A DNA stretch of 64,000 nt from Sphaerochaeta globosa str. Buddy (GTDB lineage Bacteria > Spirochaetota > Spirochaetia > Sphaerochaetales > Sphaerochaetaceae), in the NCBI RefSeq assembly GCF_000190435.1, contig NC_015152.1, forward strand, positions 2,548,458 through 2,612,457. Reading direction: 5' to 3'. Made by a program: the position numbers and the translations under genes. The notes below the pieces were generated by a model. The model was not told where the DNA came from, searched no databases, and worked only from the letters and a program-made list of their open reading frames with translations. Below, piece after piece: positions 4,564-14,907 of the stretch (the first letter of the stretch is position 1; each line of letters opens with the position of its first letter).

Positions 4564-5043
4564 TCAGAGAAAAAACTCCTTGACATTCACATCCCAAACC
4601 TTCTCTGAAAACTGGACGGCAGCATCGCTCTCGTCTCCCATTTTTATAGTCTCAACACGATTAAGACTGCCAACAATTAAACCACAGTTGTCCCCAAGGT
4701 TTTCATCAGCGTAATAGCCTCCCAATGTGATTGATGGGAATTGTTTGGTAATTGCTGCGAATATCTCTTTCGGAGTCGTCCAGGCAGTCTCAAATGCAAG
4801 CTCAAGCAGCTCTGCCTCATTCCTGCAGAACCAAAGCTCCTCAGCCTCGGTACAGGTTCCCCAATGCTCGTACAGCCATTCAAGCGCTGGAAGCTTGCAG
4901 GGCATCGGTACAAGGCTGTTGAAGAAGTTCTGTTCCTTGTCATCATTCTCACCGGCATACCTGTAGGTCATCATCGATTCCAGCATATCCAACTCATCCT
5001 TTTTACCCTTCAGTTTAATAAAAGTCTTGATCCAATTTGGCAT
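4564..5043 (-). CDS. DUF1281 / Api92-like ferredoxin-fold protein
   Basis: A 159-residue protein beginning MPNWIKTFIKLKG, with VPMPCKLPALEWLYEHWGT and FETAWTTPKEIF, the characteristic signatures of the Api92-like (DUF1281) family, which is common on plasmids, ICEs and phages and has no firmly established function. The start is set by TAAGGAG five bases before the ATG. It is the last gene of the leftward mobile cluster; the IS3 element sits directly against its stop codon. Its last codons are the first unit of the 24-bp tandem repeat, so the C-terminus may have been remodelled by slippage. Confidence 0.72.
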   Translation of the reverse strand: MPNWIKTFIKLKGKKDELDMLESMMTYRYAGENDDKEQNFFNSLVPMPCKLPALEWLYEHWGTCTEAEELWFCRNEAELLELAFETAWTTPKEIFAAITKQFPSITLGGYYADENLGDNCGLIVGSLNRVETIKMGDESDAAVQFSEKVWDVNVKEFFL

Positions 5044-5052
5044 AAAAACTCC

Positions 5053-5361
5053 TTACCAGTAACGACTTTTCAGAGCCTCTTCCTTGTGCGATTGCCAGTG
5101 TTCAGACGGCAAATCCTGCGGTTTATACTCGACCAAATACTCACACAAATCACCCTTCGGACCACCATAATCAGGTGTCCCAAAGCCTGTACATTCGGAG
5201 CAGTCCATAACCCTGACTGAGTCGCCGTAATACTCCTTCAACTGGCTCTCAAATCTCTCAATTTCTGTGATTTCTTCCATCGAATATCCGCTCAAATCAT
5301 CGTTGATAAAGAAGCATGCCATCCATTCGTAATGGCTAATTTTCTCTGTATTGTTCGACAT
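5053..5361 (-). CDS. Hypothetical acidic protein of the mobile cluster
   Basis: A 102-residue acidic protein starting MSNNTEKISHYEWM. It contains a CSEC pair and FGTPDYGGPKGD, which could form a small metal-binding or turn-rich site, but there are too few cysteines for a zinc finger. It ends nine bases before the DUF1281-like gene starts, so the two are co-transcribed. I do not recognise the family. A gene is supported by spacing, codon pattern and position in a tight operon. Confidence 0.6.
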   Translation of the reverse strand: MSNNTEKISHYEWMACFFINDDLSGYSMEEITEIERFESQLKEYYGDSVRVMDCSECTGFGTPDYGGPKGDLCEYLVEYKPQDLPSEHWQSHKEEALKSRYW

Positions 5362-5394
5362 ATTATTCCTTTCTCAGAATGTTATAAAGGACAA

Positions 5395-5997
5395 TCAGCC
5401 TTTGTAGTCGGTGTTCAAAATGTCCCAAACGCCACCGACAGGCATATACTCAATGTGAGTCGTTAGCGTGTCATACATAAGTTCTGTGCCATCTGGGAGC
5501 GTTCCGTAGACGAACCTACTCTCTCGCATATCCACATCTGGCATTGCTCCGCTTTCAAGGAACATGCCGCACATTTCAGATACATCCGATCGATGCTCTA
5601 CGTACAAATCGCCTAGCTTGCCAATGAAGTCGATATACGGCTTGAGATAACCTGCCACAAACTCAAATATGAAGCTTACCCTGTGATTCAATGAGGATTC
5701 CTTAACACCTTCCTTTTGCAGCCCTTCTCTCAATTGTTGCTTGATCTTTTTCGCCAAGGTATTAGGCAAGCCATAGGCATTATACGAAATACCTGTCAGC
5801 TCTTTCCAAGTCGCATGGAGGGCCTCACAAGTTATGGCAATGTAGTAGATTTCTCCAGACAGATTATTTACGATGGCGAATAATTGCTTGCCATTATCAG
5901 AGAAATTGGTGGTCAATTTGATAAGAGACAAATGTTTGTATTCATCCAACAATTCGTAATTGAGTAAAATTGATGATGTCGTTTTCTCTGTATCCAT
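5395..5997 (-). CDS. Hypothetical protein of the mobile cluster
   Basis: A 200-residue soluble protein without signal peptide or membrane segment. The middle is helical (residues 65-140). The C-terminus carries YGTLPDGTELMYDTLTTH and a hydrophobic tail ending DILNTDYKG. No catalytic motif is evident and the family is not recognised. It lies 33 bases upstream of the next gene in the same direction and 36 bases downstream of the RadC-like gene. Confidence 0.55.
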   Translation of the reverse strand: MDTEKTTSSILLNYELLDEYKHLSLIKLTTNFSDNGKQLFAIVNNLSGEIYYIAITCEALHATWKELTGISYNAYGLPNTLAKKIKQQLREGLQKEGVKESSLNHRVSFIFEFVAGYLKPYIDFIGKLGDLYVEHRSDVSEMCGMFLESGAMPDVDMRESRFVYGTLPDGTELMYDTLTTHIEYMPVGGVWDILNTDYKG

Positions 5998-6033
5998 TGT
6001 ACTTTTCCTTATTCGGTATGTCGTAGATTTTGC

Positions 6034-6504
6034 TTAGAACTCTTCGTTCTCTAGCATTGAGTGGTATCCGTTTGGAGAGAAGATGAGATGGTCAAGAACC
6101 TTGATGCCAAGTATGTCCCCTGCCTGCCTGAGCCTCATGGTTATGTCCTTGTCCTCCATACTTGGCTCAAGATTGCCGCTTGGATGATTGTGTGCAATGA
6201 CGATAGCCGTTGCATTATCCAAGATGACTGGACGAAACACTTCCCGTGGATGAACCAATGTTCTATTGACCAATCCTTTGGTAATGGCGTGAACATCAAC
6301 AACCTGATGCGCTCCGTTCAGCGTTATGCTGAAAAAGTGTTCATTGAAGAAGAAATCTTCAAGCGGAATGCACTTGATAAGCCTGCTATAAACCTCCGAT
6401 GGTGTGCCGATCGACGGTGTCTCGGAGACAGCCATGCTCACCAAGATATCAATAAGCTGTTGTTTCTTCAGGTTCTCATATTTTTTCATTACTTCGCTTC
6501 TCAT
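6034..6504 (-). CDS. RadC-like JAB-domain protein
   Basis: A 156-residue RadC/JAB (MPN+) protein. The hallmark IVIAHNHPSGNLEPSMED (around residues 108-125) carries the two histidines and the acidic residue of the metal site, and the downstream LDHLIFSPNGYHSM is also typical. The protein is shorter than chromosomal RadC and lacks the N-terminal HhH region, as is common for copies on plasmids and genomic islands, where the exact role is unknown. An upstream ATG at 6540 exists, but AAAAGGAG seven bases before ATG 6504 decides the start (MRSEVMKKYENL). It is co-directional with its neighbours. Confidence 0.85.
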   Translation of the reverse strand: MRSEVMKKYENLKKQQLIDILVSMAVSETPSIGTPSEVYSRLIKCIPLEDFFFNEHFFSITLNGAHQVVDVHAITKGLVNRTLVHPREVFRPVILDNATAIVIAHNHPSGNLEPSMEDKDITMRLRQAGDILGIKVLDHLIFSPNGYHSMLENEEF

Positions 6505-6506
6505 GG

Positions 6507-6956
6507 TCAATTCTCCTTTTGGAATCTGTCGTTGATACACTCAACAATCTGGTTTTCGTACTTCGTCTCAATGACCTTCCTGATATCTGGATGATTCTTC
6601 TTGAAGCACGCTATCTCATCAGACTTATGGTTCTCGAACTTGTACACCCAATTCTTTGAACATAGTGCCTTGAGCCGCTTGGTGTTCTCATACTCATCCA
6701 CCAGACCACCTATTGCTGTATCAATATCCTGTGGGACATCAGCCAAGCCAAATTTGGACATATCAATCATAGGAAGGTTTAGTGCATACTGGTGAAAATC
6801 CTCGGCCTCTCCCTTGGCTTCCCAATAAAAATTGACCGCTCCGCCATCTGCAGTATCAACCACCTCAGCAACCTTCTTCCCATCCCGATACAGGTTGCAA
6901 TTGTAGCCGTAGCCTTCTGTACCCATGAATGATTTGACGCTTTTAACTTCGTACAT
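6507..6956 (-). CDS. Hypothetical phage/plasmid-type protein
   Basis: About 149 residues starting MYEVKSVKSFMG. The N-terminal half, with GYGYNCNLYRDGKKVAEV and then DGGAVNFYWE, follows a beta-rich pattern seen in small accessory proteins of phages and conjugative elements; the C-terminal half is helical and charged. An earlier start (6971) is possible, but GGGAGG lies just before ATG 6956. It nearly abuts the upstream zinc-finger gene and ends two bases before the RadC-like gene. No function is assigned. Confidence 0.6.
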   Translation of the reverse strand: MYEVKSVKSFMGTEGYGYNCNLYRDGKKVAEVVDTADGGAVNFYWEAKGEAEDFHQYALNLPMIDMSKFGLADVPQDIDTAIGGLVDEYENTKRLKALCSKNWVYKFENHKSDEIACFKKNHPDIRKVIETKYENQIVECINDRFQKEN

Positions 6957-6958
6957 GC

Positions 6959-7369
6959 TCACACCTCCCAAGCTGTGTGATAGCTCTGTGAGTCATTCTC
7001 TTCGTTCAGCTCATCAAGCTCTGCCTGTGACAACTTCGACGCTCTCTCAACCTCTGCAGGGTCGGTATTGTCAAGCCCGGCATAAATAGCCAACCACTCA
7101 TCGGGAGCGTAATTTTTATGAAGGCATTCATCAGAACAGAAGTATTCCTCTCCTCCAGCAATGCAATAGCCTTCGACCATCAGTTTTCCACATTCATCGC
7201 ACACCCTGATTTCTACGATATCTTCCAAGTCATCAACCTTGCTGTTTATTGCATGTTCAACAGCCTCATGAACCGATCCATTATCACCGATATTTTTCTT
7301 AAGAATTGTTACAAGTCTCTCCAGAATCATTAGTTGCTCTACACTTGTAAGTTGTGCAAAGTATTTCAT
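6959..7369 (-). CDS. Small zinc-ribbon protein
   Basis: About 136 residues. The core carries CDECGK and, 17 residues later, FCSDECLHKNY: four cysteines arranged as in a treble-clef or MYM-like zinc ribbon, likely structural or nucleic-acid-binding. The N-terminus is helical, the C-terminus strongly acidic and rich in glutamate and serine. The start at 7369 (MKYFAQLTSVEQ) is preferred over 7384 because GGAG lies nine bases upstream. It is part of the leftward cluster, and its stop is next to the start of the following gene. Exact function unknown. Confidence 0.6.
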   Translation of the reverse strand: MKYFAQLTSVEQLMILERLVTILKKNIGDNGSVHEAVEHAINSKVDDLEDIVEIRVCDECGKLMVEGYCIAGGEEYFCSDECLHKNYAPDEWLAIYAGLDNTDPAEVERASKLSQAELDELNEENDSQSYHTAWEV

Positions 7370-7461
7370 TGTGTTAATCTCCATAAGTGAAGGCCCATCA
7401 GGTCAGTGACAGGCCCTCTTATCATTTTTTGGTTTGGCGGCCGTAGTAATACGGTCGTCTT

Positions 7462-7536
7462 TTACATTCTGGTCCCACCGATCGAGCCGGTGGATGCGAT
7501 GATATCCAGTACGTCATCATTAGTTTCCCACGACAT
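7462..7536 (-). CDS. Possible 24-residue micro-ORF after the ArdC-like gene
   Basis: An ATG at 7536 overlaps the last codons of the ArdC-like gene in another frame and is preceded by GGAGGC. The peptide MSWETNDDVLDIIASTGS continues for six residues. Position and ribosome site fit the overlapped style of this operon, but at 24 codons the evidence is thin. Confidence 0.3.
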   Translation of the reverse strand: MSWETNDDVLDIIASTGSIGGTRM

Positions 7537-8410
7537 TGTCTGCCTCCTTGTTCATGATATAGTTGGCAGCTCTCCCTGCCTTGCTTGCTGCGGTAACGAC
7601 CATCTGAGGGTCATTCCTGAGTGCCCTGAGCCAACTCTTGATATATGCTGCCGAATTCTTGTCGGTGCTCTCGTTTGCAATGCCAAGCGTGTTGAGAATG
7701 AATGATGAACCCATCTCAGCGGTCAACTCTTCCCTTGAGTAGGTTTGACTTCCGAATTTGTGGTCATCACCTTCTTCCTTGAACCTGTTGAGCCTGGAAG
7801 GATGGCCTGTGCTGTGGACCAGCTCATGGAACAAAGCGGAGTATAGTTCCTCTGATGTGAAAAACGTGTCTGGAATCGTCACGGTATCGAAAACGGGAGA
7901 GTAATAGGCTCCACCTCCATCCCTGCTGATACGTGGACAATTTGGCATGTTTCTGATGACTTCTTCGGCCTCGGTAATCGGGTTGAAATTCTGCGTAGGC
8001 TTGATGATTTCAGGGAATTCGATACCCTCTATCTGAGACGAATTGAAGACGAAATACAGGCGATAAAAACCAAATTTCTTGGTGGTTTCATCATCTTCTA
8101 TTTCATCATCCTTAACCTTTCTTTCGATGGTAGACCAGAAAATGACAGGTGTTGATTTCTCGCCTTTCTTGACGTTTCCGCCAAGTTCTCTTGCCTGTTT
8201 GAAGGTCAACCACAAAGGGCTGGAAAATCCACTCATCCCTGTGAGAATGGCATTGACACCTTGATAGGGCTTTCTGCTCTTGTAATTCTGTTGAGCCGAT
8301 TCAACCGTTGCCCAAGGTTTTCTCCAAGGAAGCTCATTGTTCTGCTCGATGAAATCAATGATTCTTTGCGTGACTATCTCATACACGGAATTTTTCTGTT
8401 CACTCTTCAT
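7520..8410 (-). CDS. ArdC-like antirestriction protein / zincin metallopeptidase
   Basis: About 296 residues. The N-terminal ArdC-like ssDNA-binding domain is clear (SVYEIVTQRIIDFIEQ, then LPWRKPW, YQGVNAILTGM and WLTFKQARELGGNVKKGE). The C-terminal half is a PolyVal-type zincin with HELVHSTGH as the HExxH metal site and a downstream glutamate in EELTAEM. ArdC-type proteins protect incoming single-stranded conjugative DNA from restriction, which fits this mobile cluster. The start at 8410 is set by AGGAG about nine bases before the ATG; the longer frame to 8461 would overlap the upstream gene more deeply. The upstream gene overlaps by 11 bases. Confidence 0.88.
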   Translation of the reverse strand: MKSEQKNSVYEIVTQRIIDFIEQNNELPWRKPWATVESAQQNYKSRKPYQGVNAILTGMSGFSSPLWLTFKQARELGGNVKKGEKSTPVIFWSTIERKVKDDEIEDDETTKKFGFYRLYFVFNSSQIEGIEFPEIIKPTQNFNPITEAEEVIRNMPNCPRISRDGGGAYYSPVFDTVTIPDTFFTSEELYSALFHELVHSTGHPSRLNRFKEEGDDHKFGSQTYSREELTAEMGSSFILNTLGIANESTDKNSAAYIKSWLRALRNDPQMVVTAASKAGRAANYIMNKEADNVVGN

Positions 8411-8627
8411 TTCGGGTATCTCCTGTGAGCCTGTACCAATCCTCGGTAAGCTCTTCGGCATCTATATCGAGATACCCTCCGTAGCATTTCTCTTCCTTCG
8501 TGTTGTACAGGAAGGTTTCCGCAATAGTCGGGTCGGGGAAGTATTGAACGAGTACCCAATCTCCTTTCCGATCGAGTACATTCATTTCCAGCTTGACCAT
8601 AATTGGTTCTTTTTCGTATAGACTCAT
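8400..8627 (-). CDS. Small hypothetical protein
   Basis: A 75-residue acidic protein (MSLYEKEPIMVKLE...) of alternating strands and charged turns, suggesting a small beta-rich fold; the ending DTRNEE overlaps the ArdC-like start. Its own ATG overlaps the stop of the small gene upstream by four bases (ATGA), pointing to translational coupling. The family is not recognised. Confidence 0.55.
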   Translation of the reverse strand: MSLYEKEPIMVKLEMNVLDRKGDWVLVQYFPDPTIAETFLYNTKEEKCYGGYLDIDAEELTEDWYRLTGDTRNEE

Positions 8628-8782
8628 TCGTTGTCTCCCATATACCCTTCGAATTTCAGGTGCTTTTCAAATCCATCATCCAACAACTGCATTCCGTGAT
8701 AGTCGGTAAACAGTCGTGCCACTTGTTCCCCTGAGAGAGTGCAAAGCAGCTCCCACCCCTTGGTTTGCTTCTCTCCCATCAT
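8624..8782 (-). CDS. Hidden 52-residue protein of the mobile operon
   Basis: A short open frame beginning MMGEKQTKGWELLCTLSG and ending EGYMGDNE. It is bracketed by ATGA overlaps on both sides: its ATG (8782-8780) overlaps the stop of the 92-codon frame upstream, and its stop (8626-8624) overlaps the ATG of the next gene. Such a double overlap is hard to explain unless the frame is translated. The peptide is mildly amphipathic, with a helical middle (EQVARLFTDYHGMQLL). No family is recognised. Confidence 0.65.
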   Translation of the reverse strand: MMGEKQTKGWELLCTLSGEQVARLFTDYHGMQLLDDGFEKHLKFEGYMGDNE

Positions 8783-9024
8783 GCAACCTCAAATCCTACA
8801 TTCTGCAGGTCTCTCATGCCTTGTAGCCACTCCAACACTGCTTCATAGAAAGGCTTGTTGTTGCCTATTTGTGCCACGTGTTGAACCATGCCTTTTGTGT
8901 CTGGCCTACTGTCTGATCCATCTGCATTCAAGAGCTTTTGATAGAAGTGCGTAGCGTCTATCTGCTCCAGTTTATACCTGTCGGTATACTTCCCATCGAC
9001 CAAGAAAATATCTGCTGTTCTCAT
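8779..9024 (-). CDS. Small hypothetical protein
   Basis: About 81 residues starting MRTADIFLVDGKYTDRY. GAGGAGG lies seven bases before ATG 9024, which is better placed than the upstream ATG at 9057 that would overlap the preceding gene. The protein is soluble with a mixed alpha/beta pattern and ends QGMRDLQNVGFEVA. Its stop overlaps the start of the 52-residue gene by four bases. Function unknown. Confidence 0.55.
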   Translation of the reverse strand: MRTADIFLVDGKYTDRYKLEQIDATHFYQKLLNADGSDSRPDTKGMVQHVAQIGNNKPFYEAVLEWLQGMRDLQNVGFEVA

Positions 9025-9035
9025 TGCATGCCTCC

Positions 9036-9200
9036 TCAGATGAGCTGTACGGTCCATGACTGGACACTGGACACTTCGAAACCCGATTCATCACCTGCCA
9101 CGTAGAACAGGTTGTCGGTTGGAATACCCATGCTGACAACCGTATCCATTGAGTCAAACTCTTCCAAAAATGCCCCGTTTTCCATGTGCCAAATGCTCAT
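9036..9200 (-). CDS. Hidden 54-residue protein of the mobile operon
   Basis: An open frame starting MSIWHMENGAFLEEFDSM and ending SVQSWTVQLI. GGAGGC stands six bases before the ATG, a strong ribosome site, and the stop is followed within 12 bases by the next start. It is the first gene after the terminator-like hairpin at 9211-9245. The content (acidic, with YVAGDESG) resembles small phage or plasmid proteins, but no family is recognised. Confidence 0.6.
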   Translation of the reverse strand: MSIWHMENGAFLEEFDSMDTVVSMGIPTDNLFYVAGDESGFEVSSVQSWTVQLI

Positions 9201-9295: not shown

Positions 9296-9327
9296 TGGAA
9301 AAACAGTCTTTTCACGTTGTCGATCGA

Positions 9328-9855
9328 TTAGCCGAAATACTTCTCTGACTTGGCAATCTCGTTGTTTCTCTCGATAAGAGCCACGTATCCCCACAATGCA
9401 TCCCACGTGTTGGCATCTTTGAGGACCTTCTCAAGGCGAGCCTTCGACTCTTTGTCACACTTCGCCTGCCACGAATCCATAGCGTTGTTATAGTCCACCT
9501 GCTCAGATGTCAGGGTTTTCTTTTCGGTTTCCTCATAACGTGCGTCCCTGGAATAACTCTTCACCTTGATGCTATGTCCCTTGCCTTCAAGGAGGATTAC
9601 ATCAAGGTCTCTAGGCATGCCTTTGGTCACTTTGATGTATTTGCGTACAGTACCGTCTTTGAGCACTGCAACGTGGGTTTCAAGGCCGATTTTCCAAGTC
9701 AAGGCGAGTGACAAAGCATCGGTTGCCTGTTTCAATTGTGCGGCAAATTCCCCGCCCTCTTCTTTTGCGGCTTGGTCTACTTTTCCTACTGCGAGAATAG
9801 CCTGTTTTGCCTCTTCGATAGCCTGTGCGGTCTTGGTGTTGGTTGTTGCGTTCAT
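9328..9855 (-). CDS. Hypothetical protein, first gene of the leftward cluster
   Basis: A 175-residue soluble protein. The N-terminal 50 residues are alanine- and lysine-rich helix (AQAIEEAKQAILAVGK); the centre is beta-rich (THVAVLKDGTVRKYIKVTKG); the C-terminus is helical and ends AKSEKYFG. GGAG precedes the ATG by six bases. This is the promoter-proximal gene of the cluster, downstream of the long untranslated region at 9856-10430 and followed by a terminator, which suggests that it is made in larger amounts than the rest. The family is not recognised. Confidence 0.6.
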   Translation of the reverse strand: MNATTNTKTAQAIEEAKQAILAVGKVDQAAKEEGGEFAAQLKQATDALSLALTWKIGLETHVAVLKDGTVRKYIKVTKGMPRDLDVILLEGKGHSIKVKSYSRDARYEETEKKTLTSEQVDYNNAMDSWQAKCDKESKARLEKVLKDANTWDALWGYVALIERNNEIAKSEKYFG

Positions 9856-10430
9856 GATTCACTCCTAGGGCATTTTTTGCCCGTTTTAAATTTTAGGGAC
9901 GCTCAAGCGTTCCGTTATTACCTGCAAAACAGGGAATAATGCAATGCTTGAATTCTTCCTGCGTACGCTATGGAGGTTTTTTGCTCACCTGTGTTTACTC
10001 CTGTATGGCTACAGTTTCAGTCCACCCACCTTTCCCATTTCGGGCATAGTGGCTTCGCTATCGGATAGTACCTACTCTGTCGTTCCCCGAAACCCAGCTA
10101 AAGTGTGCTATTTTTAAGGTTTACAGCGGTTAGTCCCAAAGTTTTGCGGATACTTCCCATTCAATTCCATATACAGCAAGCCGAAACCGTCTGTACTGGT
10201 AACGCATGATGACAAATCACACTTCTGTCAAAAAACCCATGTTTTACAACTCTGTACCAGTGTCCCTAGTACCGTTGACTCTCTTCTTATATCCACTTGC
10301 CTTCTAACAACCCCGAAAGACTGCTAGCCAACACCTATTAACCCCGAAAGGTTAGTGAATACTTGGTAGGGGTTTAGCTCCCCTGTGAATTTTATTGGTC
10401 CCTCCTGTTTGTTCGGTTTAACTAAGTGAT
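9856..10430 (-). ncRNA. Candidate large structured RNA or long 5' leader (about 575 nt)
   Basis: There is no plausible gene on either strand. Read on the minus strand, from a predicted start near 10430, the region contains many hairpins. Two adjacent ones share the loop UUUCGG: UAACC/GGUUA, and a nine-pair stem from CUAGCAGUC to GGUUGUUAG. UUUCGG recurs twice more (near 10178 and 10086). The nine-pair stem depends on G-U pairs that exist only in the minus-strand RNA. Near the 3' end are ACGCU/AGCGU and GGGCA/UGCCC stems, the latter directly before the ribosome site of the 9855 gene. It could be a regulatory leader or a stand-alone RNA of the kind found on mobile elements; no known class was recognised. 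Confidence 0.5.
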
Positions 10431-10465
10431 GTTTAGACAATAAAACTTAGTTTAACTAATGTCAA
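10415..10465 (-). promoter_or_regulatory. Operator-covered promoter for the leftward transcript
   Basis: On the minus strand a perfect -35 box TTGACA (10465-10460) is followed after exactly 17 bases by TATTGT (10442-10437). The spacer is filled by the odd palindrome TTAGTTTAACTAA (10447-10459), and a second copy of its core, GGTTTAACTAAG, lies at 10415-10426 just past the expected start site. This is the architecture of a repressible promoter. Confidence 0.72.
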
Positions 10466-10499
10466 TTACTTTTTTATCTAATTTTTCAAGATATATGAT

Positions 10500-10540
10500 G
10501 GATTAGTTATACCTATTTATGCTATAATGGTTTAACTAAG
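10500..10540 (+). promoter_or_regulatory. Promoter and operator for the small DNA-binding protein gene
   Basis: An extended -10 element TGCTATAAT (TATAAT at 10523-10528) is followed immediately by GGTTTAACTAAG (10529-10540), identical to the copy at 10415-10426. The -35 region is weak. A ribosome site (GAGG) and ATG 10568 follow. The shared operator suggests that the product of the gene regulates both itself and the divergent transcript. Confidence 0.65.
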
Positions 10541-10567
10541 AAAAATAATTTTTATGAGGTTAATATA

Positions 10568-10816
10568 ATGAGAACTGAGGCGGAAAGAAAATGGGACAAA
10601 GAAAATAAAGTGTTCTATGGTATGTATTTAATGAAAAGTAATGATATGGATATTATCACGTATCTTGATACAGTGAAACAAAATGGGGGGAGTGTACAGG
10701 GAGCTATCAAGGAAGCTATAAGATACTTCCTTGCCCATAGTGGTAATAATATATATACCAATATCGCACAAGAGAGCAAAACAGCTTCAGACAAAGAAGG
10801 ACCAAGCCTAGATTGA
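10568..10816 (+). CDS. Small RHH-like DNA-binding protein, probable autorepressor
   Basis: An 82-residue protein. After a charged N-terminus comes a short strand (VFYGMYLMKS), then helices DMDIITYLDTVKQNG and SVQGAIKEAIRYFLA, the pattern of ribbon-helix-helix proteins of the type that often begin with a strand then a DADII-like helix and end with an IKEAIR helix. The tail is disordered. It is the only regulator candidate in the mobile region and is transcribed divergently from the long cluster, with identical operator sequences over both promoters; the repressor role is inferred from that. AT-rich compared with the cluster. Confidence 0.65.
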   Translation: MRTEAERKWDKENKVFYGMYLMKSNDMDIITYLDTVKQNGGSVQGAIKEAIRYFLAHSGNNIYTNIAQESKTASDKEGPSLD

Positions 10817-11146
10817 AGATTTTTAAAATTGACCGATGAAATAAAAAAATATTCAGAAGGCAAGGCAAATAAAGTCAAGCAAGGGTATACAAACCTAGAT
10901 TCAAGCCGGGGAGTATACCCTACTACTTCCCCTACACTCCCTAACCATCCTATTACCAGTTATCTCGCTACCAATCGACACCTAAACCCAGGTAGTAAGC
11001 ACCAATTTGTACACCTATACCACACCAAGCCTTATTATGGACACCAAGCCCAATTCTATTAGATATAAGCACATAGCCCTATTAATACAGTAAGGATACC
11101 AGCTTAATTACTCCCTTCAGCCCTCACACATACAATAGTTACATAC

Positions 11147-11247
11147 TGCATAATTCTTGCATAAGGTCTCCCAATTTACCGGCTTTATACCAATCAATAT
11201 TGCATACAGACTGCATACAGGCTTTATTCATGCATAATTGGTGCATA
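11147..11247. repeat. Three pairs of TGCATA, each pair spaced 11 bp
   Basis: TGCATA occurs at 11147, 11158, 11201, 11212, 11231 and 11242. Within every pair the distance is exactly 11 bases, one helical turn, while the bases between vary. This is what repeated binding sites for a dimeric or tandem DNA-binding protein look like (iteron-like). Confidence 0.7.
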
Positions 11248-11416
11248 TTCAAGGTAGGGGGAGGGGGGTCAAAATTAAGGCAGGGGGGGCGGCGGATTGG
11301 ATCCAGGGGTGCGCGAAGATACTGCCTCTACCACTGCATATGGTAAAAAACTTCTAGAAAAGCTCTATCCGATTTTTAGGATCGTTATTAATATAATTAT
11401 GTCAATAATGCTCATT

Positions 11417-13453: not shown

Positions 13454-13773
13454 CCTCCTTTCAACATAATCAGTCGAATTATACAGCTATAAGTACAAGA
13501 ATGATAGGATCATATTTGTATTACCAAGGAAAGGGAGGAGCAACCTCATCAATATACGTACTAAATATCGACTACAACAAGAATCCATATTTGAAGTTGA
13601 TACTCTTTTCTTCCAGAAAAACAGACCAAGGTGTTGGAATGAACAATGATCCCCGACAAGCGCAGTACAAGTAAGATAGATACATAAGAAAAGAAAAGAC
13701 TAATAACACCCCTCGTTACCTCCAAGCCATCCTCAAAATGGAAAGTCTTTTATTGTGGATATTGGAGGCGGAA

Positions 13774-14907
13774 ATGAAAGACATTACTGGCACAGAATTT
13801 ATAGAATCTGAATTGAATCAATTGGATTCTCATGATGGATTCGTCGATTCAGAGGCAGATTGCGGGAATAGCGGTTTGTCAAGTAATACCCCTGTACTTA
13901 CAAAAACTGGGTGGAAAAAGCACGGCGAATTACAGGTGGGTGATTCAGTATACACACCAAGAGGATTGAGTAAGGTTCTTTCAGTCAAGCATTATCCAAA
14001 TTCCCAATGCATGAAAGTAGGTTTTCGAGGGAATCAAGAAATTATTTGTGGTTCTGCTCATTCATGGAAAGTCATGAAATGGAATTCTAAGAGAGCAAAA
14101 GGTGAGAAAAGAGTCGGATGGGAATCTGTTCATAATCAAACTTCTCAATTGATGTCTAACCATAAGCACCCTTATATTCCCGTTACAGGATATTCCAGCT
14201 CCCCGGTTGATTTACCTATTGAACCTTATACGCTTGGAGCTTGGCTAGGTGATGGAGATAACAGTGGAGGACGTGTGTGCGGTCCTGATGAGGAGGTTTT
14301 TGAATCAATCAGAAAAGATGGTTACAAATTATCTGAAAGCCACTGTCCTACGCGAGCACCTTTCCAAACGAGAACGGTTTATAATTTAGTCAAGGAATTG
14401 AGAAAACAGAATCTTCTTCACAACAAGCATATTCCATCAATCTACTTTGCAGCATCTGTTGAACAGCGGCTGGCTCTGCTGCAAGGATTGATGGATACTG
14501 ATGGCAACATGTCTAGGATGTATGGGAACGGAGCAACATTCGTACAAAAGAAAGAACAACTATCTCTAGATGTTCTTGCGCTTGTCAATTCTCTAGGATT
14601 CAGGGCTGGTATCTGCAAAACAGAAGTTGCCCATTATGTCTCTTTCTCAATATCAGAAAATGACTTGGTTCCCTTTCGTGTACAGCGGAAGATTGATAAT
14701 ATAAAGAAATTTCAAAGTCAGAAGCAAAGTAAAAACTGGTATGGACAATCAGTTGAGAAGTGTGAAACAGTACCGACCAACACCATACAAATAGCGGATC
14801 CAGCTGGTATATATCTAATTGGCTATGCTCTGATTCCAACATGTAGCAATCTGGATAGTGTCAACAAATACAAAAAATCTGGAGTGGAAGACAAACTATG
14901 TAGCTAG
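13774..14907 (+). CDS. Orphan intein-like protein: Hint domain with LAGLIDADG endonuclease
   Basis: About 377 residues. It contains an intein layout without a host protein: block A at residues 35-46 (LSSNTPVLTKTGWK), block B with GSAHSW near residue 96, two LAGLIDADG helices (LGAWLGDGDNS near 145 and LLQGLMDTDGN near 227), and block F (GIYLIGYALIPT near 346). The splice junction that should read HN followed by C, S or T is replaced by CSN, so splicing is unlikely. Only 33 residues precede block A and about 20 follow the end. GGAGG before ATG 13774 decides the start. It is probably a homing-endonuclease remnant that lost its exteins. Confidence 0.75.
   Translation: MKDITGTEFIESELNQLDSHDGFVDSEADCGNSGLSSNTPVLTKTGWKKHGELQVGDSVYTPRGLSKVLSVKHYPNSQCMKVGFRGNQEIICGSAHSWKVMKWNSKRAKGEKRVGWESVHNQTSQLMSNHKHPYIPVTGYSSSPVDLPIEPYTLGAWLGDGDNSGGRVCGPDEEVFESIRKDGYKLSESHCPTRAPFQTRTVYNLVKELRKQNLLHNKHIPSIYFAASVEQRLALLQGLMDTDGNMSRMYGNGATFVQKKEQLSLDVLALVNSLGFRAGICKTEVAHYVSFSISENDLVPFRVQRKIDNIKKFQSQKQSKNWYGQSVEKCETVPTNTIQIADPAGIYLIGYALIPTCSNLDSVNKYKKSGVEDKLCS

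Follow-up and report, generated by a model that had tools for sequence, protein, structure and literature searches.

In the genome of Sphaerochaeta globosa str. Buddy, the gene-free region ahead of an early anti-restriction operon appears to encode a member of an RNA family whose representatives are large (about 540–690 nt) and structured and would be carried by temperate podovirus-like phages of the Sphaerochaetaceae. They have in common a multi-helix fold that is read from the minus strand and lies at the head of, or inside, this operon. Comparison with its relatives makes it almost certain that the region specifies a large structured phage RNA, as far as its structure is concerned, and we propose, with a probability of about one half, that it acts as an early RNA that is released to function in trans. 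The analysed window, a stretch of 64,000 nucleotides, is part of the complete 3.3 Mb genome of the organism, and the coordinates of its features are compiled in Table 1.

Table 1. Features of the RNA module and its surroundings (positions in the window).
Feature	Position	Strand	Remarks
Large structured RNA module	9895..10430	-	A8 alignment, pair counts, relatives; both ends inferred
Central domain, model R1	9992..10201	-	Finds two viral contigs (5e-19) and another genus (4e-6)
Conserved 3' domain, model R2	9895..10064	-	38 pairs, 15 changed on both sides
3' hairpin GGAACGC-UUGA-GCGUCC	9897..9913	-	Loop may pair with UUCAA 9948-9952 (pseudoknot)
GUUUUUUGACA motif	10226..10236	-	Exact in 6/7 A8 sequences and in remote member G002
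UUUCGG copy 1	10344..10349	-	
UUUCGG copy 2	10313..10318	-	
UUUCGG copy 3	10181..10186	-	
UUUCGG copy 4	10087..10092	-	
Promoter of RNA and operon (TTGACA, 17 nt, TATTGT)	10437..10465	-	Consensus match 10/12
Hairpin GGGC-N-GCCC before gene 1 ribosome-binding site	9868..9882	-	Accompanies gene 1; outside the RNA module
Gene 1 of operon, 175 aa, function not assigned	9328..9855	-	In other members, a different protein of 189-214 aa
Remaining early operon	4564..9057	-	ArdC 7520-8461, RadC 6034-6540, DUF1281 4564-5043, small genes
Small divergent protein, ribbon-helix-helix look	10568..10816	+	Right of RNA
TTTAACTAA operator-like site 1	10417..10425		Relatives have palindromes at the corresponding place
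TTTAACTAA operator-like site 2	10451..10459		Within promoter
TTTAACTAA operator-like site 3	10531..10539		At divergent gene

The RNA module extends from a 5' end near 10430 to a 3' end past the GCGUCC hairpin near 9895 and comprises about 540 bases devoid of genes. A sequence-only reading had assigned all of 9856-10430 to structured RNA, which holds for 9895-10430, whereas positions 9856-9894, containing a separate hairpin and the ribosome-binding site of the next gene, lie beyond the boundary and were excluded. The absence of genes that it had noted is reflected in the lack of any open reading frame of at least 80 aa within 9870-10430 and in ATG frames of at most 25 aa on the RNA strand, the longest of which is not common to all relatives. 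Equally, the repetition of UUUCGG loops that it had described is manifested in four minus-strand copies within the 575 nt, compared to a mean of 0.086 in shuffled sequences (four or more in none of 1000 shuffles), with at least two of the copies capping stem-loops. Its claim of a consensus promoter at the edge stands with respect to the match and to the position, since all seven loci tested carry TTGACA and a -10-like hexamer in the equivalent position, but not with respect to the number of promoter-like sites over 9300-10700, which at two shows no excess over the shuffle mean of 2.5.

To the left of the RNA, the minus strand encodes a 175 aa protein (gene 1), a 92 aa protein, ArdC, RadC and a DUF1281 protein. 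The small divergent protein on the opposite side shows no Pfam or NCBIfam match in profile searches, and we infer from its ribbon-helix-helix appearance that it is a phage repressor. Both start regions are flanked by the three TTTAACTAA sites, with other palindromes found there in relatives, as would be expected for an autoregulated repressor. Beyond the repressor-like gene, the window contains a second conserved non-coding block (11043-11344; 73-88% identity across seven related loci) with repeated GCATA words and G-runs, which is perhaps an origin or packaging site. Further along (13738-14907), an intein/Hint-like stretch (TPVLTKTGWKKHGELQVGDSVYTPRG) occurs in a protein that has a similar counterpart in G003 (L017 14674-15798).

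A second copy of the RNA is located in the same genome (85% identity over 901 bases). Judged from its genes, which include an integrase, the small and large terminase subunits, a head-tail connector and tail genes, this copy sits in a fuller podovirus-like prophage, an element that IMG/VR lists as a 53 kb virus. As the whole genome contains a single terminase match, the gene content identifies the window copy as part of a Sphaerochaeta prophage remnant. In the second prophage, a tRNA-Leu(taa) directly adjoins the integrase (L015 465-1968) and is likely its attachment site.

Beyond this genome, DNA and model searches revealed relatives of the RNA in four more Sphaerochaeta genomes, in a genome from a different genus and in two viral contigs. 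Three of the Sphaerochaeta genomes are G003, G012 and G014. The two viral contigs carry mutually identical copies (E 5e-19 with R1), and the other genus (G170) was found at E 4e-6 with R1 and at 3e-46 with R2, a model that had been built with G170. The remaining Sphaerochaeta genome (G002) harbours a remote member, whose match at E 1.1e-4 is weak if taken alone and reaches only 9 bits with R1; it preserves the same operon, the GUUUUUUGACA and CUUGCGGGG hairpins and the same terminal hairpin before the start codon. In overlapping samples, matches were accepted in 6 of 139 genomes sampled at family or order level, 5 of 394 at class level and 2 of 392 at phylum level, with G014 not among the matches listed for the class-level set. 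Weak matches were dropped for 7 of the 13 matching genomes in the family and order search (E 0.0072-0.44), for 8 of 13 in the class search and for 2 of 4 in the phylum search. Alignments were inspected for eight of the nine rescored weak sources and for one new source from the phylum search, all of which lacked the 3' domain, and the remaining weak genome matches were excluded on E-value. Searches of phage and plasmid collections revealed no relatives of the RNA, and a protein search with gene 1 recovered only the two known viral contigs.

Within the genus, the terminase is present in 8 of 26 genomes and the RNA in four of these eight (G000, G002, G012 and G014). Among the other terminase-bearing genomes, G009 and G018 are cut or broken, and G019 and G025 have a less closely related TerL, while their early region is of another kind and lacks the RNA; conversely, G003 carries the RNA without such a terminase match. 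Following TerL through genome contigs yielded 64 loci with the RNA in one, several of the nearest being truncated by contig ends short of where the RNA would be expected (e.g. L075 and L076).

Several candidates were rejected. R2 matches of about 15 bits in three genomes of another family are presumably 23S rRNA, and a likeness of the RNA itself to 23S rRNA was dismissed after four RNAs, aligned to the matching rRNA locus of the genome analysed here, scored no better than shuffles. Among twelve candidate stretches, two are the known viral contigs, and R2 matches none of the other ten at E values up to 2; in L045, L047, L050, L051 and L025, pattern matches fell inside coding genes. A Gam-like gene of the Mu-like viral contig L049 is followed by ATAGCGA..ATGCCCGAAAGGG and a T-arm; this contig was discarded as a relative, as R2 scores only 11 bits and the remaining 40 nt or so before the next gene leave no room for the 3' domain. 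The 500 nt gap behind its Gam-like gene (6700-7192) holds a tRNA-like 3' end (GGCGGGTTCGAATCCCGCACCTGCCA), and ARAGORN detects no tRNA in it.

The accepted relatives suggest that the RNA behaves as a module that is independent of gene 1. The 175 aa protein is confined to two copies and is replaced elsewhere by a different protein of 189-214 aa, with 23-27% identity and no significant profile match between the two types, and the 3' part of the RNA, compared between these gene 1 groups, retains 72-75% identity among Sphaerochaeta genomes and viral contigs and 59% to the other genus. In G002 the order is reversed: gene 1, which keeps its own GGGGU-aca-UACCCC hairpin and ribosome-binding site, directly follows the promoter, and the RNA is placed between genes 1 and 2. 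In the viral contig L034, the RNA is a mosaic combining a middle hairpin of the window type with a 5' half otherwise of the G003/G012 type. Our alignment A8, consisting of seven full-length sequences from about four independent groups, displays a constant 3' half and a variable 5' half, the latter aligned with uncertainty across groups. The variable part of G002 begins with a T-arm look-alike (GUAGGGG-UUCAAUU-CCCCUAC), which the Rfam tmRNA model matches weakly (11.3 bits), in which ARAGORN detects no tRNA and which is flanked by complementary UACCCUA/UAGGGUA (L022 9385-9440). In G170, the repressor-like gene does not diverge from the promoter but follows gene 1, on the opposite strand (L166 3239-3418). 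A relationship of gene 1 to Mu Gam was discarded, as the profile comparison was not significant.

In the mechanism that we envisage, the ribbon-helix-helix repressor would shut the promoter in the lysogen, and upon induction or infection the RNA would be transcribed first, folding during transcription, and would then be released from the operon transcript by cleavage within the A/U-rich linker that follows the GCGUCC hairpin. Release by cutting is invoked because we found no intrinsic terminator after the RNA on the minus strand. The freed RNA might then serve as scaffold, decoy or self-assembling particle in early takeover, as proposed for GOLLD and ROOL. The same lack of a terminator would equally suit a cis-acting leader that remains attached to the operon mRNA and controls it, for instance by processive antitermination or by protecting the early anti-restriction transcript, and so would the location of the RNA ahead of and co-directional with the ArdC operon, into which it always points, the preserved promoter and the ribosome-binding site and start codon that directly follow. 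This is a serious alternative, to which we nevertheless assign clearly less than even odds. Against it, gene 1 differs among relatives and in G002 precedes the RNA, which is hence not always upstream of one gene as a riboregulator of gene 1 would be; moreover, a strand without any terminator offers an antiterminator nothing to control, and known phage antiterminator RNAs are far smaller than the RNA described here.

Whether such a released RNA would belong to a known class was addressed with all 4227 Rfam families, none of which reaches its gathering threshold in the window, in agreement with the sequence-only reading, which had been unable to match a class. Up to E 5, no relevant match was obtained for six loci or for G002, the models of GOLLD, ROOL and group I and group II introns remaining unmatched, and the same search tool does find a tRNA as positive control. 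The size, the carriage by phages, the conserved 3' and variable 5' halves and the T-arm-like hairpin in G002 might still reflect a true member of such a class that has diverged too far for Rfam. We consider this very unlikely in view of these searches and of the tRNA content, as ARAGORN detects no tRNA in the window or in six of seven loci, and the seventh contains the tRNA-Leu at a distance of 15 kb, beside the integrase. A tentative and rather improbable extension of our preferred reading, that of a released RNA acting in trans, is that these large ornate phage RNAs form a class of their own that shares no sequence relationship with GOLLD or ROOL. Such an RNA would perhaps assemble itself into a particle that encounters the translation machinery or protects phage products, and its 5' domain might provide a slot for elements, including the tRNA-like arm, that are exchanged between phages.

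The case for a structured RNA is founded on the relatives and not on the folding energy of the window copy, which does not exceed chance (z -1.26, with 8 of 100 shuffles folding as well). The fold of A8 contains 129 pairs, 53 of which have changed on both sides. Its covariation of 0.334 compares to 0.157 (sd 0.012) in shuffled alignments, none of 500 attaining the observed value, and to at most 0.084 for slid structures, a control that favours the actual structure because the latter was derived from the same alignment. The alignment energy is free of this fault, since each shuffle was folded anew, and amounts to -118.6 compared to -69.3 (sd 5.6) in 30 column shuffles, a difference of about nine standard deviations, with the reverse strand at -101.9. 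Both-side changes also occur in a five-sequence alignment (38 of 124 predicted pairs) and in the alignment A4 of the 3' domain in seven sequences (15 of 38 pairs), which with a structure set partly by hand shows covariation of 0.353 compared to 0.128. For the candidate pseudoknot between the last hairpin loop and the upstream UUCAA, all six sequences with letters on both sides can pair, and two pairs have changed on both sides. Helix 2 of A8 should not be taken as evidence for an RNA, as it coincides with the DNA operator palindrome. Thus, homologues with compensatory changes, whose absence would have spoken against the sequence-only reading, do exist, and its proposal that a structured RNA accompanies a mobile element is sustained, the context being a temperate phage.

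The orientation follows from the same data. A long stem in the window, CUAGCAGUCU-UUCG-GGGUUGUUAG, contains several G-U pairs on the minus strand, which had been used to set the direction, and the alignment contains 13 G-U compared to one A-C cell on that strand, a count that leans towards it since the structure was chosen there. Together these features identify the minus strand as the RNA strand. They also make it highly improbable that the hairpins act in DNA, as single-strand origin, packaging or regulatory site, an explanation that would accommodate the phage setting and the palindromic operator sites at the edge but neither the excess of G-U pairs, nor the better folding of the alignment on the minus strand, nor the promoter on that strand. 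Random hairpins in an intergenic region, which the modest z of the single sequence would permit, are refuted by the covariation and conservation in the alignment and by two relatives whose folding reaches z values of -3.6 and -3.4 (based on 20 shuffles per sequence).

To our knowledge, only a few large structured phage RNAs have been described. A further independent family heading an early anti-restriction operon would offer a tractable place to study what such RNAs do, as the host phages infect culturable spirochaetes, and the covariance models R1 and R2 are directly usable on metagenomes. Our literature search, which covered few subscription papers, returned no report of this RNA or of a relevant Sphaerochaeta prophage or non-coding RNA.

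Among known systems, the put RNA of HK022 is a phage leader acting in cis, which like the present RNA constitutes the 5' part of an early phage transcript, whereas the latter is far longer, has many more helices and in one relative follows gene 1. The leading regions of plasmids and ICEs carry anti-restriction operons, and in both cases ArdC and RadC are located behind a promoter, but here the fuller copy resides in a phage and the pairing is of RNA type and not that of a single-stranded DNA promoter. Many GOLLD RNAs exceed 800 nt, and the class is distinguished by expression that rises during lysis and by a homo-oligomeric cage. The accessible part of one source describes GOLLD as a large RNA of phages and prophages with a conserved 3' region, a less conserved 5' region and a linker that sometimes holds a tRNA (PMC12286853). 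Our family shares the carriage by a prophage, as evident for the second-copy element though not extended to the G170 locus, and the contrast between 3' and 5' regions in A8. It differs in its length of about 540–690 nt, in its location within a protein operon and in the absence of a tRNA island or of any tRNA adjacent or in a linker, the closest feature being the T-arm-like hairpin in the 5' half of G002. ROOL RNAs are of similar length, and phage carriage and a complex fold are alike, but the present RNA is so far known only from the Sphaerochaetaceae and two viral contigs and is not found beside tRNAs or near the tRNA islands typical of ROOL. The resemblance to both classes that had been suggested at the outset therefore holds in character, concerning phage, size and 3'/5' pattern, and not in homology. 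Since neither the models nor the tRNA setting match, the RNA is, as judged from these comparisons, neither a GOLLD nor a ROOL but at most their likeness in character.
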